Of a DNA stretch of 35,845 bases, positions 1 to 35,845 are shown in pieces. The notes beneath the pieces are model-generated. The model was given only the letters and a program-made list of their open reading frames with translations. It ran no database searches and was not told where the DNA came from. The DNA comes from a virus: positions 1-35,845 of the IMG/VR virus record IMGVR_UViG_3300009182_000009; one strand, written 5' to 3'. Both the position numbers and the translations under genes were made by a program. How positions within the stretch are numbered: the stretch's first letter is position 1; each line of letters opens with the position of its first letter.

Positions 1-123
1 TACGAACGGCACGAGATACATCAACACGAACAGGGCAAACAATGCGGATGCCAGTCAGAATTCCCGTCACATGTATGTGTTTGTGACATCCATGCCAACG
101 CTACCAGTCACTGCGTCTCAATA
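1..123. repeat. Left copy of 123-bp terminal direct repeat
   Basis: Bases 1-123 are identical to 35723-35845. Both copies lie inside the same reading frame of a tail gene, so the repeat is most simply an assembly overlap of a circular or circularly permuted molecule. A true short terminal repeat of a linear virion genome cannot be excluded, but its location in the middle of a coding sequence argues against that. Confidence 0.97.
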
Positions 124-490
124 TCTTATGGGCAGTGGGAATGTTGGATCTTCAGATTCCAGAATCTACATCCCCATCAACACATCCAACATTTCGATGT
201 CACTCTCCAGTACGAGTCTTTCCACTGCGACCAACCCCACACTCGGTGCGGTCAACGGGTTCGGGCTTGCCAGGAACAGTGCTACCACCGTGATTCCCTA
301 TGTGAACGGCAGTCTCGGATCATCCACCAACAATGTGGTCACTCCTACGACCACCAAGATTGGTGTGTTTGCCACAGGCACTGGAGTGTCAAAAGCCAGT
401 GCAAGGATTGGATTTTATAGCATCGGTTCCTTTGCCGACCTTGCCGTCATTGATGCAGCAGTCAAAACCCTGTTCACACAATTGACATGA
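1..490 (+). CDS. Lectin-like tail protein, C-terminal part (continues from right end)
   Basis: The frame is open from base 2 to the stop at 488-490 and is the direct continuation of the ORF starting at 35397. Joined across the 123-bp overlap, the protein is 271 residues. The C-terminal part looks like the LamG/lectin-like beta-sandwich module common at the ends of phage tail proteins: a run of NTNRANN-type Asn-rich loops, then alternating Ser/Thr/Gly strands, ending ARIGFYSIGSFADLAVIDA. That ending (FYSIG.x2-4.DLA.lDa) is typical of the module. It probably sits on the virion surface or tail tip and binds host glycans (inference). The next gene starts inside its stop codon (ATGA at 487-490), placing it immediately upstream of the lysis cassette. 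Confidence 0.8.
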   Translation, partial: TNGTRYINTNRANNADASQNSRHMYVFVTSMPTLPVTASQYLMGSGNVGSSDSRIYIPINTSNISMSLSSTSLSTATNPTLGAVNGFGLARNSATTVIPYVNGSLGSSTNNVVTPTTTKIGVFATGTGVSKASARIGFYSIGSFADLAVIDAAVKTLFTQLT

Positions 491-714
491 GTGCCGACGA
501 AGTTTCCTCAATACGGGAAGATATCGCAACCCTCCAGGCAATCATGGAGGAACGCAGTAAATCTGCTGCACACAACGCTCAACTCCTCCGCACCATTGGT
601 GCTGCCGTTGTCGTGCAGATTTTTTGCACCGTCTATTTTGCAGGGGTTAAGACCCAGATGCTGGATCGTCTCCAGCAGGATGTGGTGGCACTACAAACCA
701 AGATAGACCGATGA
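487..714 (+). CDS. Small coiled-coil / single-membrane-span protein of the lysis cassette
   Basis: This 75-residue protein starts with ATG inside the stop of the preceding tail gene (ATGA). Residues 1-35 are charged and heptad-like, residues about 36-54 (IGAAVVVQIFCTVYFAGV) form one membrane-spanning helix, and residues 55-75 form a second short amphipathic helix with Leu/Val spacing. This coil-membrane-coil plan next to a holin and endolysin fits an accessory lysis protein such as an antiholin, pinholin-type or spanin-like factor. No signal peptidase II lipobox is visible, so an outer-membrane spanin is not supported. I do not recognise a named family. Its stop overlaps the holin start (ATGATCTG at 711). 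Confidence 0.65.
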   Translation: MSADEVSSIREDIATLQAIMEERSKSAAHNAQLLRTIGAAVVVQIFCTVYFAGVKTQMLDRLQQDVVALQTKIDR

Positions 715-1124
715 TCTGGGACATACCTCAAATGGTGACCACCATTGGTGGAATCATAAACAAACTGGTTCCCGACCGTGATGTGCAGATCAAGATTCAA
801 GCGGAGATTGAAAAGCAATTGATCAACATCGAAGCAGATCAACTCTCCGGTCAACGAGAGATCAACAAAGTAGAGGCAGCATCACCTTCCATGTTTGTCG
901 CAGGATGGAGACCAGCATGCGGATGGGTCGGGGCATTCGGTCTGGCATGGCAATTCGTACTCGCACCAATGGCTACTTGGATTGCCACTCTGTGTGGCAG
1001 TCACATTGTGCTTCCGGTGCTGCCTTCCGGTGATCTACTGAACTTGGTTTTTGCTCTTCTGGGCATCGGATCCCTTCGGTCTTTCGACAAGTGGAAAGGC
1101 ACTGAAACGAAATCCGTGAAGTGA
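711..1124 (+). CDS. Holin, three-TM GTA-type family
   Basis: This 137-residue protein matches the holin family described for gene-transfer-agent release (GTA_holin_3TM). It has an amphipathic N-terminus (about 1-55), then the hallmark E-x-x-x-V/A-x-S-x-F-x-A-GWRP stretch around residues 54-68 (EAASPSMFVAGWRPACGW). Hydrophobic helices follow at about 69-90 and 103-121, and the end is basic (GSLRSFDKWKG). The product would oligomerise in the inner membrane and release or activate the endolysin encoded just downstream, whose GTG start overlaps this stop (GTGA at 1121-1124). The position between a small membrane protein and the lysozyme supports the call. Confidence 0.85.
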   Translation: MIWDIPQMVTTIGGIINKLVPDRDVQIKIQAEIEKQLINIEADQLSGQREINKVEAASPSMFVAGWRPACGWVGAFGLAWQFVLAPMATWIATLCGSHIVLPVLPSGDLLNLVFALLGIGSLRSFDKWKGTETKSVK

Positions 1125-1666
1125 AACTGGAAGACATCATTGCTGCCTCGCAGAACAAGCCTGCAAGGTTTCGGGCATGGTTGGCATTTGCAACCCGTGC
1201 CGAGGCAGAACTGGATGCCAAAGGAAATATCAAGGTGGAACATCTTCAAGACGGGGCGGGAACCACGGTGGTGGGCATGACCAGCAGGGACGAGAAGATC
1301 TCCGACAACCCTACACCCCAAGAAATCGTCGCAGGGTACTGGAAGTACTGGACAAAGTCGGAAAGCGAATCCCTTCCCTTGGGGGTGGGTGAGGTGGTGG
1401 CAGATCTTTCGCTAGTTTGCGGAATGGGTCGTGCAGCCGAGTGGCTGCAACACGGCATCGCCGACACGGGTATCCCCATCAAGTGTGACGGGATCATTGG
1501 GGAAAACACCATTGCCAAAGCATGGAAGGTGAACTCCGATGCCCTGGCACAAGACATCATTGAGCAGGGTGTGGATCACTTCCACCGCATCGCAACCGGA
1601 GGCAGGGTGAGGTTTCTCAAGGGGTGGTTGAATCGTGCCGAGGCACTTAAAGAATTCATTGCGTGA
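1121..1666 (+). CDS. Endolysin, GH108-type muramidase with peptidoglycan-binding C-terminus
   Basis: The protein has 181 residues and starts with GTG overlapping the holin stop. The N-terminal half follows the GH108 (PF05838-type) plan: an acidic EAELD segment near residues 27-32 where the catalytic Glu of the family lies, then DGAGTTVVGMTSRD, the equivalent of the DxGGxTxxGIT signature. The C-terminal half resembles the PG_3 domain: ADLSLVCGMGRAAEWLQ, then IKCDGIIGENTIAKAW, ending in RFLKGWLNRAE, which is diagnostic. It cleaves the glycan backbone of peptidoglycan at lysis. No signal peptide is seen, so export should depend on the holin. The N-terminal signature is divergent (canonical EGG absent), so the exact catalytic residue is uncertain. 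Confidence 0.82.
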   Translation: MKLEDIIAASQNKPARFRAWLAFATRAEAELDAKGNIKVEHLQDGAGTTVVGMTSRDEKISDNPTPQEIVAGYWKYWTKSESESLPLGVGEVVADLSLVCGMGRAAEWLQHGIADTGIPIKCDGIIGENTIAKAWKVNSDALAQDIIEQGVDHFHRIATGGRVRFLKGWLNRAEALKEFIA

Positions 1667-1923
1667 AGATCTCGCTACCCAAAACCATCCGAGTGGTGGA
1701 ACGGAAATTGGGTCGGGAGAAAGCTATGGGGCAGGCAACCTACGGGAAGATCCCCTTGGTGGAACTGGACTCCAGGCTACAATCCAAAGAAAGATTGGGA
1801 ACCCTTGTACACGAACTTTTACACATCGTATTTGAAGACCTTACCGAAGAGCAGACGATCCTGGTTGAGCAACGGATTGCCAGTGTTTTATGGCATGACG
1901 GGTGGAGACGCATACATAAATAA
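1663..1923 (+). CDS. Small HExxH putative zinc metalloprotein
   Basis: This 86-residue protein has a GTG start in a GTGA overlap with the endolysin stop. It carries TLVHELLHIVF, with H50-E51-x-x-H54 forming a zincin motif, preceded by an 'I-x-V/L' strand and RL..KERLGTLVHE, as in small phage metallopeptidase-like proteins and the ImmA/IrrE-type minimal zincins. A third ligand could be E/D in the following helix (EDLTEEQ). The location directly before the candidate attP and integrase, at the end of the lysis cassette, allows two readings: a peptidase for cell-wall or virion processing, or an ImmA-like protease that inactivates a repressor. The sequence does not decide between them. It lacks the helix-turn-helix often fused to ImmA partners. 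Confidence 0.7.
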   Translation: MKISLPKTIRVVERKLGREKAMGQATYGKIPLVELDSRLQSKERLGTLVHELLHIVFEDLTEEQTILVEQRIASVLWHDGWRRIHK

Positions 1924-1952: not shown

Positions 1953-1992
1953 CTTCAGAGGAGATTCATGGGTTCGAGTCCCAGTCAACCCA
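1935..1992 (+). other. attP: tRNA 3'-half-like sequence, candidate attP core
   Basis: Reading 5' to 3' there is an anticodon-arm-like hairpin (GTGGT, 7-nt loop 1940-1946 with T at the position-33 equivalent, ACCAT). A class-II-like variable arm follows (CTTC-AGA-GGAG), then a T-arm (TGGG, loop TTCGAGT at 1973-1979, CCCA), an acceptor-like strand TCAACCC (1985-1991) and discriminator A1992. The 5' half does not fold as a tRNA: no D-arm can be drawn, although GGGTGGA at 1900-1906 could pair with 6 of 7 acceptor bases. A 3' tRNA half directly upstream of an integrase gene is the classical arrangement of a phage attP that rebuilds a host tRNA on insertion. CCA is not encoded. The tRNA identity cannot be assigned with confidence. 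Confidence 0.6.
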
Positions 1993-2108: not shown

Positions 2109-2118
2109 ACAGAGGGGA

Positions 2119-3132
2119 ATGAAGTATTCCAAACTGCACCCCAAGTTCAGCAAGGCACGGAACAAATGGGAGGTGGATGTCTCGGCACGGTTCACCGGAA
2201 AGCGTACCAGGCACTTCTACGACACGCAGGCAGCAGCACTCGCAGGATGCTCTGAAATCGTCTTGAAGTTGGAAATGGGCATCTCGCCCCAACCGGACAG
2301 CAAAGTCACTAGGATCGATGCCCTGGTCGCAGCATTCCTCAAGGACAGGGAACACAAGGTGGTGGCATCCACTCTCACCTCCTTGGTCTGGGGAACCAAC
2401 CTCCTGCGTGAAAGGTTCGGACACCTCCCTGCCGATCAGTTGACTGCCGACATGGTTGATGCATGGATCATGTCCTTACGGTCTCCCAAGGGAAAAGATT
2501 TCACCGTGAGGAGCAAGCACAATGCTTTTACGACATGCAGGACTTTCTACAACTGGAACATGGTGAGGAGACTTGTTCCGGTTTCGCCATTCATCAACGC
2601 ACCGGACAAGCAGGAGAAAGGACACAGACTTGCCATACTGACCGTTGACGAGGCACGACTGCTGCTGGCTCAAGACTTTCCCTGCTGGTTCCGAGCATTC
2701 CTGGTGGGTGGGATGTTCGCAGGGTTAAGGACATGCGAGATGAAACGCATGAGTCACCACCATGTGGATTGGGATTACAACGAGATCGCAATAACCAAAG
2801 AGATCTGCAAGAAGGGAATGGCAATGCGACCGAGGCAGATCAGTCTCACCGAAGCATTCAAGAGGCACATGCACCGAGGGGATGGGGCATTCCTTGAGGG
2901 CAAGACCAACCACGACTTCGACCCGTACTGGAAACGGTGTGCTGCCCTGCTTGGTCTACCGGAGTACCCGTCAAACATTTGCCGTCACACTTTTGCCAGC
3001 ATGCTACTGTCTGCCTCGCAGAACTCGGTCACCACAGCATTTCAGATGGGTCACACCTCTCCGGTGCTGCTGTATTCCACCTATGCCAACCTGGTAACCA
3101 GGAGGGACAGTACGGCATTCTGGCAACTTTGA
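2119..3132 (+). CDS. int: Tyrosine recombinase / phage integrase
   Basis: The protein has 337 residues from ATG 2119; an in-frame TTG at 2101 would add six. Residues about 10-60 form an arm-binding-like beta region, 65-150 the SAM-like core-binding domain, and 165-330 the catalytic domain. Visible catalytic residues are R204 (FAGLR), R289-H290 (NICRHTFAS), H312 (MGHTS) and nucleophile Y322 (YSTYANL). Box II has Asn in place of the usual first His (N-x-x-R), and the C-terminus carries FW, a combination I associate with an integrase subgroup of Verrucomicrobiota and relatives (recollection, not a search). The gene sits next to the attP-like tRNA fragment and phased repeats, so it should catalyse insertion into a host tRNA gene. 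The gap to the preceding HExxH gene suggests its own promoter, perhaps within the phased repeats, but no convincing -35/-10 pair is visible. Confidence 0.93.
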   Translation: MKYSKLHPKFSKARNKWEVDVSARFTGKRTRHFYDTQAAALAGCSEIVLKLEMGISPQPDSKVTRIDALVAAFLKDREHKVVASTLTSLVWGTNLLRERFGHLPADQLTADMVDAWIMSLRSPKGKDFTVRSKHNAFTTCRTFYNWNMVRRLVPVSPFINAPDKQEKGHRLAILTVDEARLLLAQDFPCWFRAFLVGGMFAGLRTCEMKRMSHHHVDWDYNEIAITKEICKKGMAMRPRQISLTEAFKRHMHRGDGAFLEGKTNHDFDPYWKRCAALLGLPEYPSNICRHTFASMLLSASQNSVTTAFQMGHTSPVLLYSTYANLVTRRDSTAFWQL

Positions 3133-4876: not shown

Positions 4877-5554
4877 ATGAACCGATCAGAAAACATCACG
4901 ACCCTCGCCAAAGCATTGGCAAGGTTCCACGCACACGCTCCTGCGATCATCAAGAACGCAGAGAACCCACACTACCGGAATGCCTACGCAAACCTCGGTG
5001 GTATCCTCGACGCAATCCGCACCCCACTGGCAGATGTGGGTCTATCCGTTCTCCAACTCTTGGGGGACACCAACATCACCACCATGCTGCTGCATGAGTC
5101 CGGTGAGTTCCTAGAAACCACCACACCCCTCATCATCACCAAGATGGATGCCCAAGGGTACGGGTCTTCCGTATCGTACCAACGGAGGTACTCCCTATCG
5201 GCACTGCTATCCTTGGCAGCACTTGACGATGACGGGCAGGCAGCTTGCACCCCTGCAAAGAAGTTCCACAACTCCCCTGCTCCTGCTCCAGCACCGGAGA
5301 CCAAGGCAGAGAAGATCGTGAGGGCAAAGGCAGCGATTGCCGAGGCACAGCAACCCCAAGAGGTGGCAGCACCGACCCTCTCGGAACTCATGGAACGGGA
5401 CAAGGTCACCGATGACCAGGTCTTTGGGTTCCTCTATTCCAAGGGGGCAAAAATCGGAGATGCCGAGTATATTGGCGATCTCTCCAAGGGCATCCACCGG
5501 AGACTCATTGAAGTCTGGGACGAAGTGAAAGCATTCACCCCTGTCGCTGCCTAA
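4877..5554 (+). CDS. erf: ERF-family single-strand annealing recombinase
   Basis: This 225-residue protein matches the ERF superfamily, typified by the P22 Erf protein. It opens with LAKALARFHAHAPAIIKNAENPHYRNAYANLGGILDAIRTPLA split around residues 10-50, then QLLGDTNITTMLLHESGEF and SSVSYQRRYSLSALLSLA, the GS-x-x-TYxRRYxL core, near residues 98-118, followed by the D-rich DDDGQAA. Residues 125-165 are Ala/Pro/Lys-rich, a linker, and the C-terminus is a separate helical tail. It anneals complementary single strands during phage recombination and circularisation, working with the exonuclease encoded three bases downstream. Confidence 0.9.
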   Translation: MNRSENITTLAKALARFHAHAPAIIKNAENPHYRNAYANLGGILDAIRTPLADVGLSVLQLLGDTNITTMLLHESGEFLETTTPLIITKMDAQGYGSSVSYQRRYSLSALLSLAALDDDGQAACTPAKKFHNSPAPAPAPETKAEKIVRAKAAIAEAQQPQEVAAPTLSELMERDKVTDDQVFGFLYSKGAKIGDAEYIGDLSKGIHRRLIEVWDEVKAFTPVAA

Positions 5555-5556: not shown

Positions 5557-6483
5557 ATGGAAAAGCTACACCACGAACACTCTCCGTCTTCGACGGACAA
5601 GAAGAACCTCTGCATCCCCTTCCAAGGGAAGAAGACCGTAGGCAAGGCTGCACACCGTGGAACTGCCATCCATTTGGACATCACCGACCACTTGGAGGGA
5701 AAGCGGGTCTCCACCGACCCCATGATCCTGCGATCAGTCAAACGGATCCAGCAGCAGATCTCCGAGTTCATCGGGATTGAGAAGATGCTGGATGTCCCAG
5801 GGCATGCGTTTGAGACCCTCACATTCGGCACTCTTGATGCCTATGGGTGGGATGCCACCAAGAAACTGGTCATTCTGGATATCAAGACGGGGGTTCAGCC
5901 TGTCTCATCCTATGTCTACCAACTCTCCTGCTACGCTTTGGCAGCAATGGAGTTGACCGGAGAGAGCGAGTGCCGATGCGTGATCATCCCCCACGACGAT
6001 GATGAGAACGAGGCATGGAGTTTTGAGACCACCTTGGAGGAGTGCAAGGGTCTCATCTACCCCCTGTTTGATCGGATCAAGAAGGGTGTGGAACCACCGA
6101 AAAAGAACCAGTACTGCAACTGGTGCGAGAAGCAATCCACATGCAGTGAATGGGTGGATCCTGCCAAGGTTGCACTGACTCTGGTCGATGCCCTACCGGA
6201 ACGCATCAATGCCGAGTGGATCATGGCATCCCCTGCGAACAAGGGAACTGCTCTGACCCTGCTCAAGTCACTGGAGGGTATCTTTGACTCCCTCGGAGTA
6301 AAAGACTCGTTAAAAGCCGACCTGGAAGCGGGAAAGACCGTCTCCGGTTGGAAACTCCAGACCCGTAAGGGCAGTGAACGACTCGACACCAAGGCAGTCA
6401 AGAAACGGTGGGCAGAACTCACCGACGAACCCATCCCTTCCACAATCTCGGAGGCAACCGTCTCCCTGGTCAGCAGTAAGTAA
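5557..6483 (+). CDS. PD-(D/E)XK exonuclease with Cas4/AddB-like cysteine pattern
   Basis: This 308-residue protein has RecB-family nuclease motifs: R34-G-T-A-I-H39 (motif I), G-T-L-D94 (motif II), VILD108-I-K110-TG (motif III, D-x-K form) and the Q-x-x-x-YA motif (YQLSCYALAA). C19 near the N-terminus and C187-x2-C190-x5-C196 after the core match the spacing of the 4Fe-4S cluster ligands in Cas4/AddB/Dna2-type nucleases. The C-terminal 100 residues are helical and unassigned. Directly after ERF it probably resects dsDNA 5' ends to feed the annealing protein, a two-gene recombination system like Red alpha/beta. An iron-sulphur cluster is inferred from cysteines only. Confidence 0.82.
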   Translation: MEKLHHEHSPSSTDKKNLCIPFQGKKTVGKAAHRGTAIHLDITDHLEGKRVSTDPMILRSVKRIQQQISEFIGIEKMLDVPGHAFETLTFGTLDAYGWDATKKLVILDIKTGVQPVSSYVYQLSCYALAAMELTGESECRCVIIPHDDDENEAWSFETTLEECKGLIYPLFDRIKKGVEPPKKNQYCNWCEKQSTCSEWVDPAKVALTLVDALPERINAEWIMASPANKGTALTLLKSLEGIFDSLGVKDSLKADLEAGKTVSGWKLQTRKGSERLDTKAVKKRWAELTDEPIPSTISEATVSLVSSK

Positions 6484-6860: not shown

Positions 6861-7079
6861 ATGGCATCGAAACTCCAGGGTGATCTCATTGCCAAGTTGC
6901 AGCAGATCCACCGGAACCACTGCAACCTATCCATGAGAACACGGGACTTGTTCGTGCAGAATGCCCAACTCCAATCCGAGTTGGCAGCAATGAAGGCACT
7001 GAACATGGCACTCCTGTCTCAATTGGATGAGTTCCAAGAGGTCATCCTGGGGTTCGATCCCACCTTTTTTTGCGAATGA
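6861..7079 (+). CDS. Small coiled-coil protein
   Basis: This 72-residue protein is almost entirely helical with leucine/alanine heptads (LIAKLQQIH; LFVQNAQLQSELAAMKALNMALLSQLDEFQ) and ends in FDPTFFCE. ATG 6861 lies four bases after the preceding stop, and its stop overlaps the next start (ATGA at 7076). It probably oligomerises. There is no recognised family. Confidence 0.6.
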   Translation: MASKLQGDLIAKLQQIHRNHCNLSMRTRDLFVQNAQLQSELAAMKALNMALLSQLDEFQEVILGFDPTFFCE

Positions 7080-7741
7080 AAAGACTGCTTGTAGCCTGTG
7101 AGTATTCCGGTCGGGTGCGTGATGCTTTTCGTGCCTTGGGGTGGGATGCCACCTCATGCGATTTGCTGCCATCCGAAACGCCAGGACCGCACCACACCGG
7201 AAGGGTGGAGGATATCATCGGGGACGGGTGGGACATGCTGATTGCATTTCCTCCATGCACCTACCTCTGCTCTTCGGGTATGCACTGGACAAAAAGGGGA
7301 CTGCGTGACCCTAAACTTACCGAGGAGGCACTGGACTTTGTTCGGTTGTTCCTCGACGCACCGATACCCAAGGTTGCCGTTGAAAACCCGATAGGGGTGA
7401 TCAGTAGCAGGATTAGGAAACCGGATCAGATAATTCACCCGCATCAGTTCGGTGAAAATGCCAGCAAGGCAACATGCCTGTGGTTGAAGGGTTTGCCACT
7501 ACTGGTTCCCAATCACCATTTCCTGCCATCCTACGCATGCCAGTGTGGTTGCCGATTCCACTATGACCTTGGGAAGTACGGATGTCCCAACGGATGCCAG
7601 ACTCCTGCACGGCAAGTGTGGGGCAACCAAACTGCTTCCGGTCAGAACAAGTTAGCACCCTCCAAGGATCGATGGAAGATCCGGTCTACCACCTACCAGG
7701 GAATTGCAAATGCAATGGCAACCCAATGGGGAACCCTATGA
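7076..7741 (+). CDS. Cytosine-C5-methyltransferase-like phage protein with zinc ribbon
   Basis: This 221-residue protein starts at ATG 7076. The N-terminal RLLVACEYSGRVRDAF is the SAM-binding motif I of C5-methyltransferase relatives. FPPC with C61 (IAFPPCTYLCSSG) is motif IV with the catalytic Cys, and VE103-NP resembles motif VI (ENV). A cysteine cluster C155-x-C157, C170-x3-C174 (YGCPNGC) forms a probable zinc ribbon seen in this phage subfamily. The protein is shorter than full C5-methyltransferases (usually over 300 residues) and lacks a clear target-recognition domain, so it may modify DNA with low specificity or be a divergent enzyme. Its relation to the missing GGCC/GCGC sites is discussed under findings. 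Confidence 0.75.
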   Translation: MKRLLVACEYSGRVRDAFRALGWDATSCDLLPSETPGPHHTGRVEDIIGDGWDMLIAFPPCTYLCSSGMHWTKRGLRDPKLTEEALDFVRLFLDAPIPKVAVENPIGVISSRIRKPDQIIHPHQFGENASKATCLWLKGLPLLVPNHHFLPSYACQCGCRFHYDLGKYGCPNGCQTPARQVWGNQTASGQNKLAPSKDRWKIRSTTYQGIANAMATQWGTL

Positions 7742-8533: not shown

Positions 8534-9234
8534 TGCATTTCTTTGCATTTAACATCAAGTCGTATGCTCACGCCACGGTTCACCTTACCAACGAGGAAGA
8601 CCTAGCCTATAGGAGGATATTGGACATCTGCTACGATACCGAAGCACCACTTGATCCCGATCCCAAGGTGATCTCCCGTCGAGTTCGGTGTGAACTAACA
8701 TCTGTGCAGAATGTCTTGGGTGAATACTTCATCCTCACTGACACCGGATGGGTTCACCCCAGGGTGCAGAAGGAACTGGATTCCACCTATGCCAAGAGTG
8801 AAAAAGCCAAGGAGTCGGCACTCCTCTCTGTCAAGGCACGGCAGGATCGAGCGAACGCTCAACGAACGCTCAACGAACGCTCAACGAACGTTGAGCTACC
8901 TATTACCCATGACCCAGTACCTATGACCCAGAAAGAAAAGACAAAAAAGTCGCAGCAAGCTGCTCCGGTTGTTTTTCCTTTTGAGTTGGATACGCAGGAA
9001 TTCAAGCAGGCATGGGAGGAGTACATGACTTACCGAAGGCAGTCGAAATTCAAGACCCTCAAGTCGGCATCCATCCATGCCAAGTTTCAAGAGATGGCAG
9101 AGTGGGGACACGACCAGGCAGTGGAGGCACTCAAGGCATCCATTTCCAACGGGTGGCAGGGAATCTTTCAACCCACCGGAAAGCCCACCCCACATGCTGC
9201 CACCACCTCATCAAAATATGATCATGCATTCTGA
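8533..9234 (+). CDS. DUF1376-family replication protein with internal iterons
   Basis: In this 233-residue protein residues 1-90 match DUF1376 (YdaU-type): FFAFNIKSYAHATVHLTNEE, DLAYRRILDICYDTEAPL, then VL..YFILTDTGWVHPRV. This domain occurs in phage replication-initiation proteins that precede a DnaC-like loader, exactly the gene that follows. Residues about 105-125 are encoded by an 11-bp tandem repeat (QRTLNERSTN). Residues 150-215 form a second helical domain (FKQAWEEYMTYRRQSKFKTL; AVEALKASISNGWQGIF), resembling C-terminal regions of other phage replication proteins. It probably recognises the origin and recruits the loader, like lambda O. The origin may lie within the gene itself. Confidence 0.8.
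   Translation: MHFFAFNIKSYAHATVHLTNEEDLAYRRILDICYDTEAPLDPDPKVISRRVRCELTSVQNVLGEYFILTDTGWVHPRVQKELDSTYAKSEKAKESALLSVKARQDRANAQRTLNERSTNVELPITHDPVPMTQKEKTKKSQQAAPVVFPFELDTQEFKQAWEEYMTYRRQSKFKTLKSASIHAKFQEMAEWGHDQAVEALKASISNGWQGIFQPTGKPTPHAATTSSKYDHAF
8852..8896. repeat. ori: 11-bp iterons, candidate replication origin
   Basis: GCTCAACGAAC occurs three times in direct tandem (8857-8867, 8868-8878, 8879-8889), preceded by a partial CGAAC (8852-8856). It is closed by GTTGAGC (8890-8896), an inverted copy of the first seven bases, so the last unit forms a perfect 7-bp dyad around GAAC. The 11-bp period is about one helical turn. The array lies inside the replication-protein gene and is followed by a repeat of ATGACCCAG and an A-rich tract (8929-8950), as iterons and unwinding element are arranged in lambdoid origins. 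Confidence 0.65.
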
Positions 9235-12000: not shown

Positions 12001-12480
12001 ATGGCAAAAAAGAAAGCCATAGCAACCATTCCTCCCAAGCCCATCGGGAGACCGTCATCGTTCACTCCAGAAATCGCACAAGAGATCTGCCAGAAGATCG
12101 GTGATGGTCTCTCTTTACGGGATATTTGCTCGGAAGCAGGCATGCCTTCTAGGCAAGCAGTCAATCGGTGGCTGCATGAAAACGAAAACTTTCGTTACCA
12201 ATACGCACATGCCCGTGAGCTACAGATTCAGCACTATGCCGACGAGATTCTCCAGATTGCCAATGACGGCAGGAATGATTGGATGATTAGGGAGGATGCC
12301 AAGACCGGACATCAGTCAACCGTACCCAATACCGACCACATCCAGAGATCCAAGCTACGGGTGGACACCTACAAGTGGCTGCTCGGCAAGCTCGCTCCCA
12401 AGGTCTTCGGGGACAAGGTGGAGGTGGAGCAGACGGGTAGGGTAAAAATCAACATAAAGATCGGTGGAGACTGTAACTGA
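12001..12480 (+). CDS. terS: Terminase small subunit
   Basis: This 159-residue protein has a basic N-terminus followed by GRPSSFTPEIAQEICQKIGD and GLSLRDICSEAGMPSRQAV..WL, an HTH typical of Sf6-like TerS DNA-recognition domains. The helical part YQYAHARELQIQHYADEILQ and the end KWLLGKLAPKVFGDKVE close the family pattern. It binds the packaging site and delivers DNA to TerL, whose gene overlaps its 3' end by 17 bases. It is the first gene of the morphogenesis block. Confidence 0.9.
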   Translation: MAKKKAIATIPPKPIGRPSSFTPEIAQEICQKIGDGLSLRDICSEAGMPSRQAVNRWLHENENFRYQYAHARELQIQHYADEILQIANDGRNDWMIREDAKTGHQSTVPNTDHIQRSKLRVDTYKWLLGKLAPKVFGDKVEVEQTGRVKINIKIGGDCN

Positions 12481-13783
12481 TCTCATTGAGGCAGACATGG
12501 AGGTCTCCCCTCGCAAGCAGTTTCGTGCCTTCCTTGAGCGAAAGCAGAGGTTTGCAATTTTGGTCTGCCATCGACGGGCAGGGAAGACCGTTGCCTGCAT
12601 CCAAGACATGATCCACCAGGTGCTGACCCACCCCAGGCAGGATCCTCCGGTTCGTGCTGCCATGATCGCACCCACCTACTCCCAGGTGAAAGACATCTCC
12701 TGGTCGCAACTCAAGCGATATGTGGAGAAGATCCCCAAGGTGAAGATCACCGAGGCAGATCTGACGGTGACATTCCCGAATGGGGCAGTGATCAAGCTGC
12801 TATCGGGTGAGAACTTTGAGCGAATTAGAGGCACATTCATGGATCTGGTGGTGATTGATGAGATGGCAGACATCCCTGCCTCCGCATGGCATTCAGTTAT
12901 CCGACCCTGCTTGGCAGACTACCAGGGCAAGGCAGTCATTATTGGAACTCCCAAGGGCAGGAACATCTTTTGGCGAATGTGGCAAGAGGCACTGAACGAT
13001 CCAGAATGGTACACGATGCTCCTCACGGCAGATGAGAGTGGTCTCATTGCACCGGAGGAGTTGGCAGCAATCAAACGAGGCACACCGGAGCATGTGTATG
13101 AGCAGGAATTCAATTGTTCCTTTGCCGTCTCACGCATCGGGGCAATTTACTCCCGTGCCTTGGAGACTGCCCGAAACGAGAAGAGGGTGAGTAACGACAT
13201 CCTCTGGCACAAGGAGTCTCCGGTCTACACGGCATGGGATGTGGGTGGAGCCAACAACCAGAGGGTGTGGTGCTTTCAAGTCATCGGTGACCGGATCGTG
13301 ATGCTCCAGTGTCTCTTTGGGGATCATGCCTGTGCCACCCCTGCCGATTGGGTGGCGAGGCTCAAGGGGATTCAGTACCAGTTCGGGTGTCATCTGATCC
13401 CCCACGATGCCCAGACCCGCAACGGATCCCTGTGGGAGGGAAATCTGCTCACTGCTGGTCTGGTCAATATCTCCGGTGTCAACAGGCAGCACAATGTGTG
13501 GGACGGCATCAACCTGGCACTCGACGCATTCCCACGGGTCTCTTTCAACCAGGACGGGTGTGCCGATGGTCTGGACTCGCTTGACAACTACCATGCCAAG
13601 GAAATGAGGGACGGGGTGAGTGTGCAGGAGGTTCCGGTACACGATCACTCCTCCCATGCAGCCGATGCCTTTTCACTGGCATTCCAGGGTCTCAAGCAGG
13701 GTCTCATCATTGATCGCACCCACATCCCACGCACCGCATTCCGTCAACACTTTGGGATGAGGCAGAAGTTTGCCAACCGATGA
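12464..13783 (+). CDS. terL: Terminase large subunit
   Basis: The protein has 439 residues from GTG 12464; ATG 12497, with GAGG five bases upstream, is an alternative giving 428. The ATPase domain has Walker A CHRRAGKT with K41, Walker B LVVID132-E133, and motif III-like AVIIGTPKGRN. The nuclease domain has D259 in YTAWDVGG, QYQFGCHLIPHDAQTR, and D401 in SSHAADAFSLAF, the RNase H-like acidic residues. It is the packaging motor and headful/cos nuclease. Length fits podovirus TerL proteins. No intein or intron is visible. Confidence 0.93.
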   Translation: METVTDLIEADMEVSPRKQFRAFLERKQRFAILVCHRRAGKTVACIQDMIHQVLTHPRQDPPVRAAMIAPTYSQVKDISWSQLKRYVEKIPKVKITEADLTVTFPNGAVIKLLSGENFERIRGTFMDLVVIDEMADIPASAWHSVIRPCLADYQGKAVIIGTPKGRNIFWRMWQEALNDPEWYTMLLTADESGLIAPEELAAIKRGTPEHVYEQEFNCSFAVSRIGAIYSRALETARNEKRVSNDILWHKESPVYTAWDVGGANNQRVWCFQVIGDRIVMLQCLFGDHACATPADWVARLKGIQYQFGCHLIPHDAQTRNGSLWEGNLLTAGLVNISGVNRQHNVWDGINLALDAFPRVSFNQDGCADGLDSLDNYHAKEMRDGVSVQEVPVHDHSSHAADAFSLAFQGLKQGLIIDRTHIPRTAFRQHFGMRQKFANR

Positions 13784-14522: not shown

Positions 14523-16289
14523 ATGGCATCCACCAAGCAGGCTATGCCCAATGGTGGCATCACACCACCGGATGACGAAGAATCCGAGGTGTACAGCAAA
14601 AAGGATCACACCAAGATTGTGACCGAAATCACCGCACGGTGGTCGCAGATGGATGCTGATCGGTCGTACTGGATGGGTCAGTGGCAGAAATTAGCCGACT
14701 ACATCATGCCTCGCAGGAGCAGTGTTCTCAACAACACGACCACTCCCACAGGGTGGAAAGAGGCACTGCTCTTTGACACCACGGCAATGAGGGCAAATCA
14801 ACTCAACGCCAGTGGCAGTGCATCCTACATAACCCCTGCCAACACCAGGTGGTTTTCCTACGACCCACCGGACAACCTGGAAGCTGCTGATGGGGTGGCA
14901 GAGTATTTTGGAAAGGTCACCGAGATCGTCTACGAGCAACTGGCATCCAGCAATTTCTACTCGGTCTGCCATGAGCATTACCTGGATCGTTCCTGCTACG
15001 GCACGGCAGTGCTGTTTGTGGAACCCTCTGACACCCAGGCACTGAACTTTTCTTCATTTGATGTGGGTACATTTGCAATCAGCAAAAACCACTTGGGCTA
15101 CATCGATACCATGTTCCGCAAGATCCAGATGTCGGTTCGCAATCTCGTGGACAAGTTCGGCATTGAGAATGTTTCAGATTCCACACGCACGGCATACAAC
15201 AATGCCAATGGCAAGAACCTCGACCAGAAGGTCAATGTGATCCATGCCATCTACCCCCGACCCGACTCGGATCGGGACAAGGGTAAGATGGATGGAGAGA
15301 ACAAGGAAATCGGATCGGTCTGGATCGAATTGGATTCAAAGCACTGCTTGAAGAATTCCGGTTACGACGAGCAACCCTTCTTTTGCAGCCGATACTACAC
15401 CTGGCAGGATGCCCCTTACGGGTACGGTCCTGGATGGATTGCCTTGGCAGACATTCGCCAGTGCCAGCACATCCAGAAGAACCTGGATGCCATCGCAGAA
15501 CTCCTAGCGTACCCACGATTGCTTGTCCCAGAGAACATGGAGGGGGCAGTCGAGATGGGTTCAGGAGGCATCACCTACTTCAACCCTGCCGATAGTTCTG
15601 CCATCCCCCGTGAATGGGCAACGGTGGGGCGAACCGAGGGGCTGCTGGAGAGGCTCAAGGAGAAGCAGGATGCCATCAATGATGCCTTCATGGTTCCCCT
15701 GTTTTCCATGTTCGCACAGCAGGAGCAGAACTCACCGAACCGGATGACTGCCACCGAGGTTCGTGCGAGAGAAGCAGAGAAACTGCTCTCTTTCTCCCCT
15801 GCATTCTCACGACTCTCCAGTGAAATGCTCACTCCCCTGCTCAAGAGGGTCTACGGTCTGTGCATTCGCCAGGGACTCTTCCCAGAACTTCCCCAGGCAC
15901 TCATCCAAATTGCACCCGATGGCACTCCGGTCTCACCGGAACCCAAGATTCAGTACAGCAGCAGACTCGCACTTGCAGTGAAGGCAATGGAAGTCAGTGC
16001 CGTGGACGCAACAATGGCACGGGCAGGGCAACTTCTGCAACTCACCCAGGACTTCTCGGTCACCGACAACCTGGATGCCGATAAAATCCTTCGTGAGAGT
16101 GCCATGTCGGAGGGTCTTGACCCAGAGTTCCTGCGTACTTCCGAGCAGATGGCACAAATGCGTCAGCAACGCATGGAGGCACAGCAGGCAGCAGCACAGC
16201 AGCAGATGCAACAGCACCTTGCCGACACGGCATCCAAGCTAGGAAGCATCAAGCAGGATGCTGCCATTAACCAACCCATGATGGGATGA
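14523..16289 (+). CDS. Portal (head-tail connector) protein, T7 gp8-like
   Basis: This 588-residue protein has the T7-type connector plan (PF12236): RWSQMDADRSYWMGQWQKLA, DYIMPRR, then FDTTAMRANQLNASG and MTPANTRWF-like SYITPANTRWFSYDPPD. The central wing has SFDVGTFAISKNHLGYIDT and VYR-x-x-M-like MFRKIQMSVRNLVDKFG. A C-terminal crown with a Gln/Ala-rich coiled tail (QMRQQRMEAQQAAAQQQMQQ) ends the protein. Twelve copies form the portal ring at one capsid vertex. It matches the usual connector length of 500-600 residues. Confidence 0.92.
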   Translation: MASTKQAMPNGGITPPDDEESEVYSKKDHTKIVTEITARWSQMDADRSYWMGQWQKLADYIMPRRSSVLNNTTTPTGWKEALLFDTTAMRANQLNASGSASYITPANTRWFSYDPPDNLEAADGVAEYFGKVTEIVYEQLASSNFYSVCHEHYLDRSCYGTAVLFVEPSDTQALNFSSFDVGTFAISKNHLGYIDTMFRKIQMSVRNLVDKFGIENVSDSTRTAYNNANGKNLDQKVNVIHAIYPRPDSDRDKGKMDGENKEIGSVWIELDSKHCLKNSGYDEQPFFCSRYYTWQDAPYGYGPGWIALADIRQCQHIQKNLDAIAELLAYPRLLVPENMEGAVEMGSGGITYFNPADSSAIPREWATVGRTEGLLERLKEKQDAINDAFMVPLFSMFAQQEQNSPNRMTATEVRAREAEKLLSFSPAFSRLSSEMLTPLLKRVYGLCIRQGLFPELPQALIQIAPDGTPVSPEPKIQYSSRLALAVKAMEVSAVDATMARAGQLLQLTQDFSVTDNLDADKILRESAMSEGLDPEFLRTSEQMAQMRQQRMEAQQAAAQQQMQQHLADTASKLGSIKQDAAINQPMMG

Positions 16290-17921: not shown

Positions 17922-18845
17922 ATGGCTAATCTCACCGCAATTCCCGACCACTTCGTAACGCAATTTGAACTCAATTGGTTGACCGCAGTTCAGCAAATCC
18001 AGGCTCGCATCAAGGATCGTGCCAAAGTTGTCGCCACCGAAGGACAGGCTCTTCGCCTCAATGTCTTCGGGACGACCAGCATGACCCAGGTCACCACCAA
18101 GAACGCTGCCACACCCAATGTGGACATCGCAATGCCTGCCCGTTGGGCATACCTCACCCCTTGGGAGACTTCCTCCCTTTTCGGTGAGTTTGACGAGCAG
18201 TTCCTCGGTCAAGTGGTTCTGCCGACATCCGATTGTATTGCTTCCCAGGCTGCTGCGTACAACCGTCTTGCCGACTCGACCCTCATCTCTGCTCTCACGG
18301 GCAATGCCACGGTCACCGACACGACAACACCAACGGTCTACACGATCAACAGTGCCACCACCACGGTTGCCCTGCCTTCGTCGCAGCAAGTCGGAGTTCA
18401 GTTCGGCAACAGTGGATCCAATGCCAACCTCACTATCGCAAAACTGCGTGAGGCAAAGCGGATCCTCGACTCCAACGAGGTTCCTGCTGATGGTCGTGTG
18501 CTGGTCATTTCCAGTGGCGAACTCGCAGCACTCCTCGGAACCACCGAGTACACCTCCAACCTCTTCAATTCCGTCCAGGCATTGGTGAATGGAGATGCCA
18601 CCCGATTCCTCGGATTCGATGTGGTTCGCAGCGAACTACTCGGAGTCACCGGAACCCCTGCGGTTCGTACGGTCATCGCTTACCACAAGGATATGGTGGC
18701 GTTTGCCAGTGGCAACCAGAAGAGCTACATGGATGTCCGTCCCGACATCTCCCATGCTCTCCAGGTGCGTTCGGTAGCGTCCCTCGGTGCGACCCGTCTC
18801 CAGGAGAAGGGTGTGGTCACCATCGCTTGCGACACAACCAAGTAG
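17922..18845 (+). CDS. Major capsid protein (Phage_capsid_2-like)
   Basis: This 307-residue protein follows the Phage_capsid_2 pattern: HFVTQFELNWLTAVQQIQAR, GQALRLNVFGTT, then TPNVDIAMPARWAYLTPWET. SSLFGEFDEQF with D-x-x-x-AAAYNRLADSTLISAL corresponds to the E-loop/spine region, and the central VALPSSQQVGVQFGNSG is followed by the P-domain/A-domain alternation (EAKRILDSNEVPADGRVLVI). It ends ARVLQ-like RSVASLGATRLQEKGVVTIA. It has its own promoter region upstream and a strong terminator downstream, consistent with high expression. No Shine-Dalgarno sequence precedes ATG (leader ACAAACATC). Confidence 0.9.
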   Translation: MANLTAIPDHFVTQFELNWLTAVQQIQARIKDRAKVVATEGQALRLNVFGTTSMTQVTTKNAATPNVDIAMPARWAYLTPWETSSLFGEFDEQFLGQVVLPTSDCIASQAAAYNRLADSTLISALTGNATVTDTTTPTVYTINSATTTVALPSSQQVGVQFGNSGSNANLTIAKLREAKRILDSNEVPADGRVLVISSGELAALLGTTEYTSNLFNSVQALVNGDATRFLGFDVVRSELLGVTGTPAVRTVIAYHKDMVAFASGNQKSYMDVRPDISHALQVRSVASLGATRLQEKGVVTIACDTTK

Positions 18846-24878: not shown

Positions 24879-27800
24879 ATGGCAGACCTACTTGACCCTC
24901 AAAAACCCGACACCCTGCAACCCGACATTTTGGCAGATGAAAATTTCATGCAGCAGGAGGATAAGCCCAAGGATATCTTCCCAGACCAGAATCCACAGTT
25001 CGGCATAGTCAAGCAGGATCCCAAGGTTGCCTCTTTTATCAATGAGGCATACGACAAATCGAACCAGTGGCTTGCCAAGACCCTGGACAATGTCGATGCC
25101 ATTCCGGTTCCCAAAGACACAATTGATAAAAAGGCAATGAGGGAAATGGCTGCAAGCTACGCAGTCATCAAGCAACTCACCGGAGTCGAACCCGTAGAAG
25201 CTGCCAAGAATTATCAACTCCTGCAAAAAGGGGTGTCGGCACAGTGGGGTGAGGATGCACCCAAGTCCACGGCAGACTTCCTTGACCAAGCGAGACGGCA
25301 CATCAACGGAACACTCAACTACGGCACTGCTCTCACCAATGCCTTCAATCAAGGGATCACCGACAACGAGGGTGGCAAGATGAAAGATCCGGTCATTTCC
25401 GAGCAGGAATGGCGAACGAGCAATGGGTCTCTGATTGCGTCCAAGGGTGGCAGCACACCACTGGACGAGAAGGGCATCCATGAGGCATTCACCTCCATGT
25501 ACGACAGGGGTGCAGCCATTGCCATGAACCCCATGTTCCCATTGGTCAAGCAGACCTATGATTTCTTCAAGGGGGGAGTCACACCGGAAGGAACCCCAAA
25601 ACTGGATGCCGTCTCCGACACCATGCTGGAATTCGATGCCACACCGTCAGCATCTGAAAGCACTTTGAAGTCAAAGATCATGGGAATGACCGATGAACAG
25701 CAGAATCAGTTTTTCCAGACCCTGGGGCAGTATTCCCTCGCCAAAGGAGATGACAAAGCATCGATAGGTCAATGGTTCGGTGAACTCGGACAAACGCTTT
25801 CTAGGGGCATTGTAGACACGGGAAATGCCATCGTAGAACCACCCCTTCGGTCACTTGCCACATCAGCAGGGGATCTCGGTGTGCTGCTAGGCAACCCAGA
25901 ACTGGCACAGGGTGCTGAAAATTACACCCGTGACCTGGATGTACAGGCACGACTCAAGGATGCAGCCGATAATGTCATCAACCCCCTCCATGAGTATGGG
26001 TTTGCTACCGATGTCATTCGTGGAGCAGTCAGTGCAGTTCCTTGGATGGCAGCATTCGCAGTTGATCCTGCAATTGGTATCGGGGCAATGGGTCTCTCCA
26101 ACATTGGGAATGTGCAGACTGTTTTGCGTCAAAACAACCCAGGGATGTCCCAGGCAGAACTAAACGCCATTTCGGTCATGGCAGCAGCACCCATGACGGC
26201 ACTGCAATCCATCTCAATGGGTTCCGCTTTCAAGGCATTCCCTTGGTTGGAACAACGCATCGCCACCACCTTTGGGGGAGGCATCGTCAACCAGATTGCA
26301 CACATCGGTGTAACCACGGCAGGCATGAACCTTGCCGATGCCACATCCATTGTGTCACAGAAATTGGCACAAGTCTTTGACCCAGAAATCAAGATGGGAT
26401 CCCCTGCATCCGACCAACTGGTGGATCTCATGCTACGACTACCGGAGTCTGCGTCAACCTTTGCACTCATAACCCTCGCAGGGGCAGGCATCCACAAACT
26501 TCAAGGTGGCAAGAATGCAGACCAAGCAAAAAATGCTGCCGTGAATGTGGCTAAAGGTCTGCGAGATGAGCAGGCATTGCGGGCATTGGGATGGAGCAAT
26601 GAGCAGATTTTAGAAGCACAGAATGCTCCTCTAGACAAAGTTCTGGATACCGTCACCCGCATCAAGGGAGACATACGATCTGATGCTATTGCACAAGGCA
26701 AAACCATTGCGGAAAAACAAAGCATCCTATCCAGGCTTTACGCAGAGTCACCGGAAACTCCGACCATGATTGTGCTGGATGATGGTTCCTACCGACTCAT
26801 GGTTCCCGATTCCAAAGGAGTGCTGCAATCGGCAGGCGAAACACCAGACTTTGAGGTGGCAAATTCCAGATTGATTAGGTTGGAAAAATTCCACGAACTA
26901 AAACAACTCCAGCACTTCAACCAATTGATCGACCACATGATGGGGGTGTGGGAAAAGCAGGGGATTAAAAACCGGACGGTGGAAACCCCATCGGAACCAG
27001 GCAAGACCGTACAGGATTACCTCGACCAGAAGGAAAGCACACTCTCCGAGGCAGAACTCCGGTTGAGGGTGGCACTCGCAGGAGGGCATGAGAACGATTC
27101 CCTGTCATCCAGCATCATTGAGGGGTACACCACCAACGAGTGGAAGAACAAGGTCTACACCGACATCATCAAGGTACTGGATCACAACCCCCAGACCTTC
27201 CTGCACGAAAGCAGTGATGCCCACACCAACCGTGCCATCGCAATGGGCAAGTTTACCCATGCCGACCTGGTGCGGTGGATCCGTCAGACCGAGGCAGGGA
27301 TGAAGGCAATCGACGGGCAGGATCACCAGTATCTCAAGCCAGAGTATGAAAATAACCCTGCTGCCATTGTGGAGGCACACACGCAACTATTCCTCGACTA
27401 CGCAGGGGGCAAGTTTGAAGCGTACAAGGCTGCACCCTCGGCACTGAAGGGGTTTTTCAAGGCAATGCTCCGGTACTTCCAGAATGTCCTGGCAAAGGCA
27501 AAGGTTCTCAACGCTGCGATTGAAGCAGGCACGGTTCCCAAAGAATACCACCAGCACCTTGCAGAGACGATGGGTCTCGACATGGGTGAACGACTTGCAC
27601 CGGAGGAAGGCAAAGAGACGGCACGACTCATGGGGGCAGATGTTTCTGATGGGAACCTTGAGCAGCAGACACTTTTCTCGATCAAGCCCAAGGAATCTGC
27701 TGATGATGAAAAGATGAACCCCATTCGTGCAGCATTACAGCAGTACGAAGATGGTGAAAAGATCCAGGACTTTGGTGACCTTGTTGACCATATTGATGAA

Positions 27801-30800
27801 CTGGCAGGGGAGACAGGGAACTCGGATCTGGACACTGCCCTGTATGACTACCGGACGGCAGTTGACGAGGACTACAAGATGTATGGGGGCAGGGGTGATG
27901 CGGAAGAATACGAGGCACAATTCCTTTCAGACCTAGCCAAGGCAGCAGACAACCTGGACAACGAATCTAATGGGGAGCCAATTACCCACCCCGATGGCAC
28001 GGTATCCAATCCCAATGAGACCACGGAACCTGGAACTCCAGCACCGGATACCGGCATCGCCGAGATTGATCCCGACCAACAGGAAGGGGACGGGTGGAAA
28101 GATATCCCGTGGACAGAGGAGACCAATTTCTCCATCAAGCACCTCCCGACATCCTTTGTGTGGATGTCCAAGAAGGAGTACGACAAGATTGCCAAACGAA
28201 CCGACACCATTGCCGGAATCCACATTGATCGGATGAGGGTCGGAGAGTATCTGGGGATTGATCTCCAGGGTGGCATGTACTACCCGACCATTGTTGAGAA
28301 CCTCAAGAAGAGGGTGGTGTGGGCATTCAACTCGGCAGGAGTTGCCAGGACTGTGGCAAGACGGGCAGCAGAGAACGGTGGGTATGTGAAACTCATCCTC
28401 ATGCAGGAGGGGAATGTCATCGGGAACAAAACTTTTGGGAACATCTGGTTTGAGCAGTTACGCAGGAACATTGCTGCTGGATCCATCACTGAGAAGAAGG
28501 CACTGGAGGCACTAAACACAATCCGAGATCGTTACAAGACCAAGAAGGCAATTGTGGACGGCACGGGTGACTTTGTCGTGAAGATGGTCAAAGACAAGGA
28601 GACGGGGAAGATGGTTCCCGAAATGGTCGAAAACAAGAAGACCGGAAAGATGGAGAAGAAGATGGTTCGGGTGAAGGGAACCGGAGAGGTCTACGACAAG
28701 AGTTACACCGGACACATGGAGGAATGGAAATCCCTCGCAGAGGCACAGACGGCAATTCTGGCAATGACCCAGACCAAACGGGCATCCACCTATTTTAACA
28801 AGACCAAGACCAACACCAAGTCAAAGGGTGAGGGCATTTCCTATGGCAACCTACTATCAAAGAAAATGACCGCAATGGGACTGCCAGACGCAGCAACCAT
28901 TGTGGAAGCCATTGAGGAACCCTCATTCAAAGGAGTCCCCAAGGGGGCATCCGTTGCCATCATCAAGTTCGACCCAGTAGCAGATGGTGAAAAGATTCTC
29001 ACCGGAAAACAGGCAGGAGTTACACCACACATTTCCTACAACTATGTGCTAAAGGGTGAACCCGTTGCTAGGATGAGGAAGTTCAAGGTAGTGGACGAGG
29101 AGTTCCCAGAGACCAAGAATCGGATTCTCACCCAAGCACACACCGATTTCCCATTGGAGAGATCGGTCAGTTTTTCAATTAAGCCAGGGGCAAGCGACAT
29201 TCTCAAAAAGTACGAGGGGATGAATAGTGTTGAGACCACCAAAGAGGGCAGGAAGTTTTCACCAATCGTTAGAGACCTGCTCCAAAGGAGGAAGAATGGT
29301 GAGGACATCCCATACTCCGTGATCCAAGAGGCAACCAATGAACACTACCCTGCACAGTTAGTGGAAGTTCCTAAATCCGTAGATGATCTTCCATCACAGG
29401 AGACAATCAAAGACGCAGTTGGTGCAAAGTATCAGTCACCGGATGACAATCTCCCCAAAGCAGGAGACGCAGTTGAGGCACGGCAAGATGTTCCATCGAT
29501 GACCAGGAAAGGAGTCGGGGTGGTTACGCTTACCTCTGGTGATAAGCGTACATATCTTGCAGCAGTAAGAATGGATAAACCGCAGTTTGTGCTGGATGAA
29601 GCAGCATCCTTACGAATCGGACTAGGTCAGAACAAAGCACCTCACATTAAGATCCATGCAACCTTTGCAAAAGATCAAAGCATGCCACCAGACCTTGAGA
29701 CTTGGACTCAAGTTGGATACAACCCAGACAGGCATAGCTACTACTATGATAGGTCTGACATGCGTCAAGTTGTAGGAGCATCCGAGGCATACCAGGTAGG
29801 GAATACGGTTTTTGTGAAGGATCCCGTGTACGGTGACGGAAGACCTTCCAATATTTCCTACAGCATCCGCACCAAGGCAGATGCCGAGAGGGTCAACGCA
29901 GAGTTTGAACGGCAGATGGTTGCATCTCCCACCAAACGCAGGGAGATCATCGAACGAGCAGCAGCACGATTCGGAAAAGTGCAGGAAGACATGGCAAAGA
30001 TCAACGAGGAGTTGGCAAGTGACATGAAGCACCGGAGGGAAGTCAATGCTGCCACCATGCAGGAGAAGAAGGCACGGGAGATCGAAGACATTGAACTCGG
30101 TGAGAAGCAGGAACTGCGTGATGCCTTGGAGAAAAACAAAGACAAGTTCTCCGACCGACTCCTCACTGCCGAGGGGCAGAAGAAGATCTCCTTGGAGGCA
30201 CAGATGAAAGACCGTGCCAGACTCATTGAGAAAGGCATCAAGGATAAGTATGCCGAGAAGAAGAAGGCAATGGAGCAACGCTACTCCGAGGAGGATGTGA
30301 CGGCACTTTCCCGTGCCGACATTCGCCAGGAGATGCAGCAGAATCTGGTGACCTTGGGAGCAATTATACGAACCCTTCCCAAGTCACTGCAAGGCGAAAT
30401 CGGGTCACCCTACACGCAGTACGCAGCACTCACCAACGACACTGCCAAGGCAAAGTTTCTTTCCACGATCATTGGTCGCATGACCAAGGCAATCGATAAC
30501 AACATCAAGGGGGCATTCATTGAGAAGATTGAGGCTGCACTCAAGAAAGCCAAACCCAAGGCGGGGGATAACAAGATCAAGAAGAGTCGATTCGGTGCAG
30601 ATGCCCAAGATTTCCTAGACACAGCATACCGTGCATCCCTCATGGACAACGACAAGGTGGTCGAGGAACTAGATGCCTTGGAGAAAAAGATCAACGATGC
30701 CACCACACCGGAGGAGACATCTGCCCTAGTGCAGGAGTGGGGAATCGTCAACACCTACGGTGATCTCTACGGACGCACGGCACTTCACCTGGAGAATGCC

Positions 30801-34592: not shown

Positions 34593-34594
34593 CC

Positions 34595-35017: not shown

Positions 35018-35022
35018 CCACC

Positions 35023-35136
35023 ATGACCATAACCACCGTAGTGACCCAAGGTTCCACCAGCAGAACCATCAGCACATTCTCCCAGGAGGGAGGCAAGACT
35101 CCGACAGAAGTCAATGCCGACCCTAGCAGGGAATAA
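35023..35136 (+). CDS. 37-residue Thr/Ser-rich ORF
   Basis: The ATG at 35023 follows the previous stop by five bases. The product (TITTVVTQGSTSRTISTFSQ...) is Thr/Ser-rich, like beta-strand sections of tail proteins. No family match. It may be a minor structural peptide. Called because it fills the gap in frame-consistent fashion with typical codon use, but unproven. Confidence 0.42.
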   Translation: MTITTVVTQGSTSRTISTFSQEGGKTPTEVNADPSRE

Positions 35137-35148
35137 CACGCACCACCC

Positions 35149-35397
35149 ATGCCCAACTCTATCTCCAATCCTTTCGACTCCGGTTTCAACGGGGGCACTC
35201 TCATCACCGGAACCACTGCCAAGACCGGATCTTGGTATGCCGTCCAAGTCGTTGCCGATGTGGTTTTTTCGACCCTTACTGGCAACCTCGGTGGCGACAC
35301 CTACGCAGGGGTCACCTTTGCTGCTGGCACGGTGATCTACGGTTCATTCACTGCCATCACCCTGGCATCCGGTAAAGTCATTGCCTACTCCAGGTAA
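35149..35397 (+). CDS. Small beta-rich phage virion-associated protein
   Basis: This 82-residue protein contains TGSWYAVQVVADVVFSTLTG and AGTVIYGSFTAITLASGKVI with a terminal AY, a short beta-sandwich pattern (sW.aiqvl.d..f..lt.n...G..i.G.fT.i.LaSG.viAY). I recognise this from small proteins encoded near phage tail-fibre and lectin genes. The role is unknown. Its TAA overlaps the next ATG (TAATG at 35395-35399). Confidence 0.7.
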   Translation: MPNSISNPFDSGFNGGTLITGTTAKTGSWYAVQVVADVVFSTLTGNLGGDTYAGVTFAAGTVIYGSFTAITLASGKVIAYSR

Positions 35398-35845
35398 TGC
35401 CACTACTCGGTCTCGGTATTGAACTTGGAAAGCAGGGGGGGATTACCTCCTCTCCTGCTCCATCCCCGTATGATCCCGATGCACTGAATTGGTTTTCAGC
35501 AGTATCAGCATTGGGAGGCACTGTCTCCGATGCCAACAAGCCTGCCATCAATGCGTTCTTTGTAGCACTCAAGACCGGAGGGGTTTGGTCGTCAATTGCC
35601 CAAGCTAACTTGTTTGCAGGGGCATCCACCGTAGCCAGTGCAATGGCTCCGATTGTTGGAAGCACCATTGCCAACAATGGGTTTCTTGATGCCGACTACA
35701 GCAGCACATTGGGTCTCACCAATACGAACGGCACGAGATACATCAACACGAACAGGGCAAACAATGCGGATGCCAGTCAGAATTCCCGTCACATGTATGT
35801 GTTTGTGACATCCATGCCAACGCTACCAGTCACTGCGTCTCAATA
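35397..35845 (+). CDS. Lectin-like tail protein, N-terminal part (continues at base 1)
   Basis: ATG 35397 overlaps the preceding stop. The frame stays open to the end of the window and continues at bases 2-490, where the 271-residue protein ends. The N-terminal part has a short Gly/Ser/Pro-rich leader, then ALNWFSAVSALGGTVSDANK and INAFFVALKTGGVWSSI. That is the helical cap (D..a..f..aaG.t......Ai..lv..LK..glW..) preceding the LamG-like module in phage tail proteins. The YIN-x-NR loop leads into the lectin part. Likely a receptor- or glycan-binding tip component. Confidence 0.85.
   Translation, partial: MPLLGLGIELGKQGGITSSPAPSPYDPDALNWFSAVSALGGTVSDANKPAINAFFVALKTGGVWSSIAQANLFAGASTVASAMAPIVGSTIANNGFLDADYSSTLGLTNTNGTRYINTNRANNADASQNSRHMYVFVTSMPTLPVTASQ
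35723..35845. repeat. Right copy of 123-bp terminal direct repeat
   Basis: Identical to bases 1-123 and in the same codon phase, so the tail gene reads smoothly across the junction. This shows that the sequence closes into a circle. Confidence 0.97.

Follow-up and report, generated by a model that had tools for sequence, protein, structure and literature searches.

At least 14-15 palindromic words that match known Type II restriction specificities, together with the asymmetric word CCTGA, have been eliminated from the phage genome IMGVR_UViG_3300009182_000009 of the IMG/VR collection (hereafter the window: the entire virus record of 35,845 bases). We judge it very probable that prolonged counter-selection, exerted by many Type II restriction systems met across host strains, emptied the genome of these sites.

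Words missing from the window

A sequence-only reading of the window had reported no GGCC, no GCGC and a single CGCG near 23668, and an exact recount of the plus strand (for palindromes, both strands) over all 35,845 bases gave the same numbers. We compared these counts with two null models: 200 codon shuffles in which each protein and its codon usage were kept, and shuffles that additionally preserved the dinucleotides at codon junctions (dicodon null). The first null predicts 92 GGCC and 56 GCGC sites, and the second predicts 84 (lowest shuffle 68) and 22 (lowest 12), respectively. The observed zeros lie far beyond both nulls, and an account by codon usage alone is rejected. Both words are empty in all three reading frames, and the 4,860 non-coding bases contain neither, against an expectation of about 18 of each from base composition. 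At the protein level, the dipeptide Trp-Pro, which forces a GGCC, is absent (7.2 expected), compared with six occurrences of Pro-Trp (7.2 expected); taken alone, this is modest evidence.

Codon choice follows the same words. As had been described for alanine, a preceding codon that ends in G is followed by GCA 276 times, GCT 16 times, GCG nine times and GCC never (n = 301), while after T the codon GCC accounts for 231 of 435 choices. The parallel claim for glycine holds in that none of 92 codons before a C is GGC, but the proposed substitute GGG (17) is not the main one, since GGT (52) and GGA (23) are commoner. Similarly, the statement that CCGG, GATC, GTAC and TGCA are common is borne out for GATC (241), GTAC (101) and TGCA (200), but the CCGG count of 131 is misleading: 128 of these sites lie in ACCGGA/TCCGGT, which is 3.4-fold enriched over the 37 expected under the codon null, and hardly any CCGG occurs in other contexts.

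The sequence-only reading had attributed the loss of GGCC and GCGC to counter-selection by restriction. This explanation fits best, with the codon-only null rejected, but it was drawn too narrowly, as these are two words of the larger eliminated set. ACGT, which that reading did not mention, matches GGCC in its depletion, and many missing five- and six-base words had likewise gone unnoticed. Judged against the same kind of null, the genome is nearly emptied of ACGT (1 site), CTNAG (1), GGWCC (3), CCSGG (0), GCSGC (0), GDGCHC (2), GGYRCC (1), CYCGRG (0), RCCGGY (1), GRCGYC (0), CTGCAG (0), TCCGGA (0) and YTCGAR (2), and of the asymmetric CCTGA/TCAGG (3 copies); CCATGG is also absent. For GGWCC we relied on the codon null because the sub-word GGNCC is itself emptied, which misleads a maximal-order compositional statistic (CB 1.15). 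In the per-word control tables and those of the relatives, a site is counted once per codon it overlaps, so figures from these tables exceed genome counts.

The depletion has sharp edges that coincide with enzyme specificities: CCSGG is absent and CCWGG occurs 130 times, GCSGC is absent and GCWGC occurs 165 times, and the single ACGT stands against 101 copies of GTAC. Among the sister words retained are also GATC and CATG (222), and CTGCAG is missing although TGCA is common in other contexts. Two hallmarks of site avoidance are seen, in that the depletion is specific to recognition words and the protein- and codon-aware expectation lies far above the counts. A stepwise codon-choice model picks such words in succession, both broad and narrow, with CCTGA among them; CCTGA is not known to be the target of any enzyme.

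A broader trend accompanies these losses. The degenerate word VGCB (GC without a preceding T and without a following A) stands at 0.29 of expectation in the window, compared with 0.8-1.1 in relatives. Among GGC codons, the next base is A in 120 of 130. TGGCA is enriched, as is ACCGGA, and neither is flanked by an extended motif; a functional iterated motif behind ACCGGA is thus rejected.

Lineage dependence of the eliminated set

The same phage is present in a second record, IMGVR 3300010158, which is 99.99% identical over 13,047 bases. Its nearest relatives are three records of 35-37 kb with 57% capsid identity. These share the loss of CTNAG, GGWCC and GDGCHC, and largely also that of CYCGRG and CTGCAG. 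They keep GGCC, GCGC, CGCG, CCSGG, GCSGC, GGYRCC, GRCGYC and CCTGA, and their ACGT is reduced, not eliminated. The two words singled out by the sequence-only reading therefore belong to the lineage-specific part of the pattern, a further respect in which that reading was too narrow. Different sets, such as ACGT, GTAC and GDGCHC, are missing from more distant relatives.

On a quick, midpoint-rooted capsid tree of 44 loci, in which gain is indistinguishable from loss, the eliminated set differs by lineage, with three to five state changes for many words. GCGC, CGCG, GCSGC and GRCGYC are eliminated in the window only, GGCC in the window and one distant relative only (L085, IMGVR 3300042905_006261), and GATC and CATG in none of the 44. 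L085, in which 12 of the 19 words tested are eliminated, ranks second in the clade for the extent of its purge; its losses include GGCC, ACGT, GTAC, CTAG, CTNAG, CCSGG, CCWGG and GDGCHC. In a related clade (L013, L021, L023, L059, L086 and kin), GTAC and ACGT are both at zero in many members, and CTAG and CCWGG are often low or absent.

We ranked 213 fetched loci of at least 4 kb by the elimination of 26 words under a base-composition null. The window, along with its own fragments, comes out on top, having 15 of the 26 words eliminated, whereas prophages of the same portal family in named bacteria have lost zero to four. Podoviruses of the HTVC010P and BPP-1 types, which have homologous portal and major capsid proteins and head gene order in common with the window, differ from it in this respect: HTVC010P lacks 4 of 17 testable words and BPP-1 lacks 1 of 25, and P22 lacks 0 of 25. 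Phages poor in GGCC or GCGC are known, in which GGCC-type sites were lost through host restriction, but with one or a few sites per case.

An otherwise unrelated phage (L144, IMGVR 3300025366_000006), with a methylase 61-69% identical to one encoded in the window, loses GCGC, CGCG, ACGT, CTNAG, GGWCC, CCTGA and GCWGC and retains GGCC. For one pair of words it is the mirror image of the window, keeping GCSGC (52/16) and losing GCWGC (3/29). Such an overlapping yet different set fits what different host repertoires would be expected to produce.

Genome content, methylase gene and host search

The gene content, judged by profile matches, points to a temperate podovirus with an integrase and a candidate phage attachment site (attP) that resembles a tRNA end (Table 1). 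The portal and major capsid proteins are homologous to, and in the same order as, those of HTVC010P-like and BPP-1-like podoviruses (phrog_332, E 2e-120; PF19821, E 6e-51; 29-35% identity). A single reading frame of 2,734 residues (24879-33083) takes up almost a quarter of the genome, and NCBIfam gives no significant match for its first half. The candidate attP sits just ahead of the integrase gene; its sequence for matching to bacterial tRNAs is GGGTTCGAGTCCCAGTCAACCCA. One of the two YTCGAR exceptions (1973) falls inside it, and may have been kept because identity with the host tRNA would forbid its removal. A tRNA-Lys gene on an 83 kb virus contig (L125) contains a 23-base part of the candidate attP.

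Table 1. Coordinates of words and genes in the window
Feature	Position	Strand	Remarks
Whole phage genome record	1..35845	.	Record equals window; one virus record
Candidate attP, 3' end of a tRNA gene	1960..1992	+	T-arm ATGGG-TTCGAGT-CCCAG, acceptor TCAACCC-A; 33 bases, no encoded CCA
Tyrosine integrase	2116..3132	+	PHROG phrog_1, E 2.7e-27; PF00589, E 2.8e-5, below Pfam's cut-off
Erf-like single-strand annealing protein	4877..5554	+	Profile match
Exonuclease (PD-(D/E)XK, DUF2800)	5557..6483	+	Profile match
Short DNA cytosine-5 methyltransferase-like protein, phrog_757 family	7076..7741	+	Invariant PPC (Cys61) and ENP motifs
Only ACGT	8888..8891	.	Within short direct repeat GCTCAACGAACGCTCAACGAACGTTGAGC (CTCAACGAACG), window 8870-8900
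Terminase large subunit	12464..13783	+	Profile match
Portal / head-tail connector	14523..16289	+	29-31% to BPP-1 and HTVC010P
Major capsid protein, HTVC010P type	17922..18845	+	Marker for the tree of relatives
Only CGCG of the genome	23668..23671	.	Word count
Only CTNAG (as CTGAG)	28489..28493	.	Word count

For the predicted product of the methylase-like gene, neither Pfam nor NCBIfam gave a family above cut-off, and a sequence search of the PDB gave no match. The AlphaFold model of the protein (predicted local distance difference test score, pLDDT, 84) adopts a C5-cytosine methyltransferase fold, with M.HaeIII as the best PDB match (E 3e-6; template modelling score, TM, 0.40). Among 20 related records searched, some of them fragments, the gene was found only in the other record of the same phage. 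The putative methylase neither accounts for nor tracks the pattern of eliminated words, because most phages whose enzymes are 58-70% identical show no avoidance of these words. The suggestion of the sequence-only reading that this gene may not protect GGCC and GCGC sites is compatible with the data. One of the three GGWCC sites (7184) lies within this gene, a position that may hint at the gene's later arrival.

Searches for a host covered several routes. Neither megablast nor tblastn in phages gave a close host, and a portal scan of genome contigs came no closer than prophages with 26-31% identity, in various Proteobacteria, Myxococcales and Desulfovibrionales. A literature search for the IMG sample numbers gave no match. 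No close prophage, judged by portal protein, was found among 398 Pseudomonadota genomes or 198 sampled genomes of the phylum of a Halodesulfovibrio genome. The tRNA end pattern of the candidate att site is absent from the 398 Pseudomonadota genomes, and tRNA matches in relatives were of no help in naming a host.

Probable restriction by many hosts and competing explanations

Avoidance of Type II sites is an established counter-restriction strategy (Rusinov et al, 2018; PMC6286503), and the window resembles the surveyed cases in that short palindromic Type II sites are nearly all lost from a double-stranded DNA phage while similar words are spared. According to the explanation we favor, synonymous codon changes, for the most part, would have cleared the genome of the sites recognized by many orthodox Type II enzymes that the lineage met in its hosts. 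An enzyme cannot cut a phage that lacks its site, and site-losing variants would therefore have left more offspring each time a cell with a new restriction system was entered. We infer that the purge was cumulative, in layers: CTNAG, GGWCC, GDGCHC, CYCGRG and CTGCAG, common to the nearest relatives, would form the probably older layer, followed by a second that the nearest relatives do not share (GGCC, GCGC, CGCG, ACGT, CCSGG, GCSGC, GGYRCC, RCCGGY, GRCGYC and CCTGA). The hosts would carry many systems that differ between strains, and methylation gained in one lysogen would thus give no protection in the next host. Repeated site loss of this kind fits the zeros, the palindromic words, the sharp edges, the independence of reading frame and the lineage-specific barcodes.

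Several points weigh against this explanation. The number of independent specificities behind the eliminated words is uncertain because the words overlap, and no host genome with matching restriction enzymes was found in the searches made. The VGCB depletion persists after the listed words are modeled, and discrete known specificities therefore leave part of the pattern unexplained. In the survey, elimination was found in 7.1% of pairs of Type II site and phage, temperate phages had a smaller share of eliminated sites than non-temperate ones, and elimination stayed below 0.5% for other system types, being nearly absent at Type III and IIG sites (PMC6286503). The window falls outside this usual setting of non-temperate phages and Type II palindromes, being apparently temperate, having about 15 words eliminated and having lost an asymmetric word, CCTGA. 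Because elimination in the survey is infrequent, lower in temperate phages and almost nil for other types, we regard the window as an extreme variant of long-known site avoidance.

The VGCB trend, seen in the window alone, raises the possibility that fewer and broader host endonucleases, with relaxed or degenerate GC-centered targets, cleared many words at once, in which case a figure of about 15 systems would be inflated. The first picks of the codon-choice model are indeed broad (such as SVGCBS and VSGCSB), and motifs grown from the residual remain depleted (SMGCKS 2/108, CCGSC 6/96). However, ACGT, CTNAG, GGWCC, CTGCAG, CYCGRG and CCSGG do not have the VGCB form and are separately eliminated, and several of these words have been lost from the relatives and from L085, where VGCB is not depleted, which leaves this alternative unlikely. 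The VGCB trend, the enrichment of ACCGGA and TGGCA and the strong dependence of codon choice on its neighbors might also suggest a codon-usage, codon-pair or mutational bias unrelated to restriction. Mutational bias would be expected to give shifts, not zeros; both codon nulls fail, the depletion extends to all frames and to non-coding DNA, and GGCC and GCGC persist in close relatives whose composition is similar. We give this idea almost no credence.

The phage-encoded methyltransferase-like protein, whose best structural match is a GGCC enzyme, could be taken to mark sites for modification-dependent (Type IV) cleavage, so that the phage lost its own methylase's target words. Yet a fold match gives no specificity, one enzyme cannot account for about 15 words, many words are missing too from relatives that lack the gene, and GGCC and GCGC are not eliminated in most phages with 58-70% identical enzymes; we consider this route very improbable. 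Nor is a general avoidance of palindromes or hairpins at all plausible: six-base palindromes are reduced overall (196 compared with 549), but GATC, CATG, GTAC, AATT, GGATCC and GCATGC reach or exceed expectation, the clade-wide retention of GATC and CATG argues against it, and CCTGA is not a palindrome.

Beyond counter-selection by many restriction systems, a more far-reaching proposal, to which we give a somewhat less than even chance, is that all through this clade of temperate podoviruses the lineage-specific barcodes of eliminated sites reflect which restriction systems a particular group of hosts has carried. The roughly 15 losses of the window would then include targets of at least one uncharacterized asymmetric system (CCTGA) and of a broad VGCB-like one, and site loss would be the main defense of a phage that is nonetheless temperate. 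A small temperate genome that lacks about 15 words, set beside relatives that lack different ones, would allow the restriction systems of past hosts to be read off. Records of this kind could guide host searches for uncultivated phages, point to enzyme specificities not yet described (CCTGA, a VGCB-like activity) and serve to test the rate at which sites are lost and regained.

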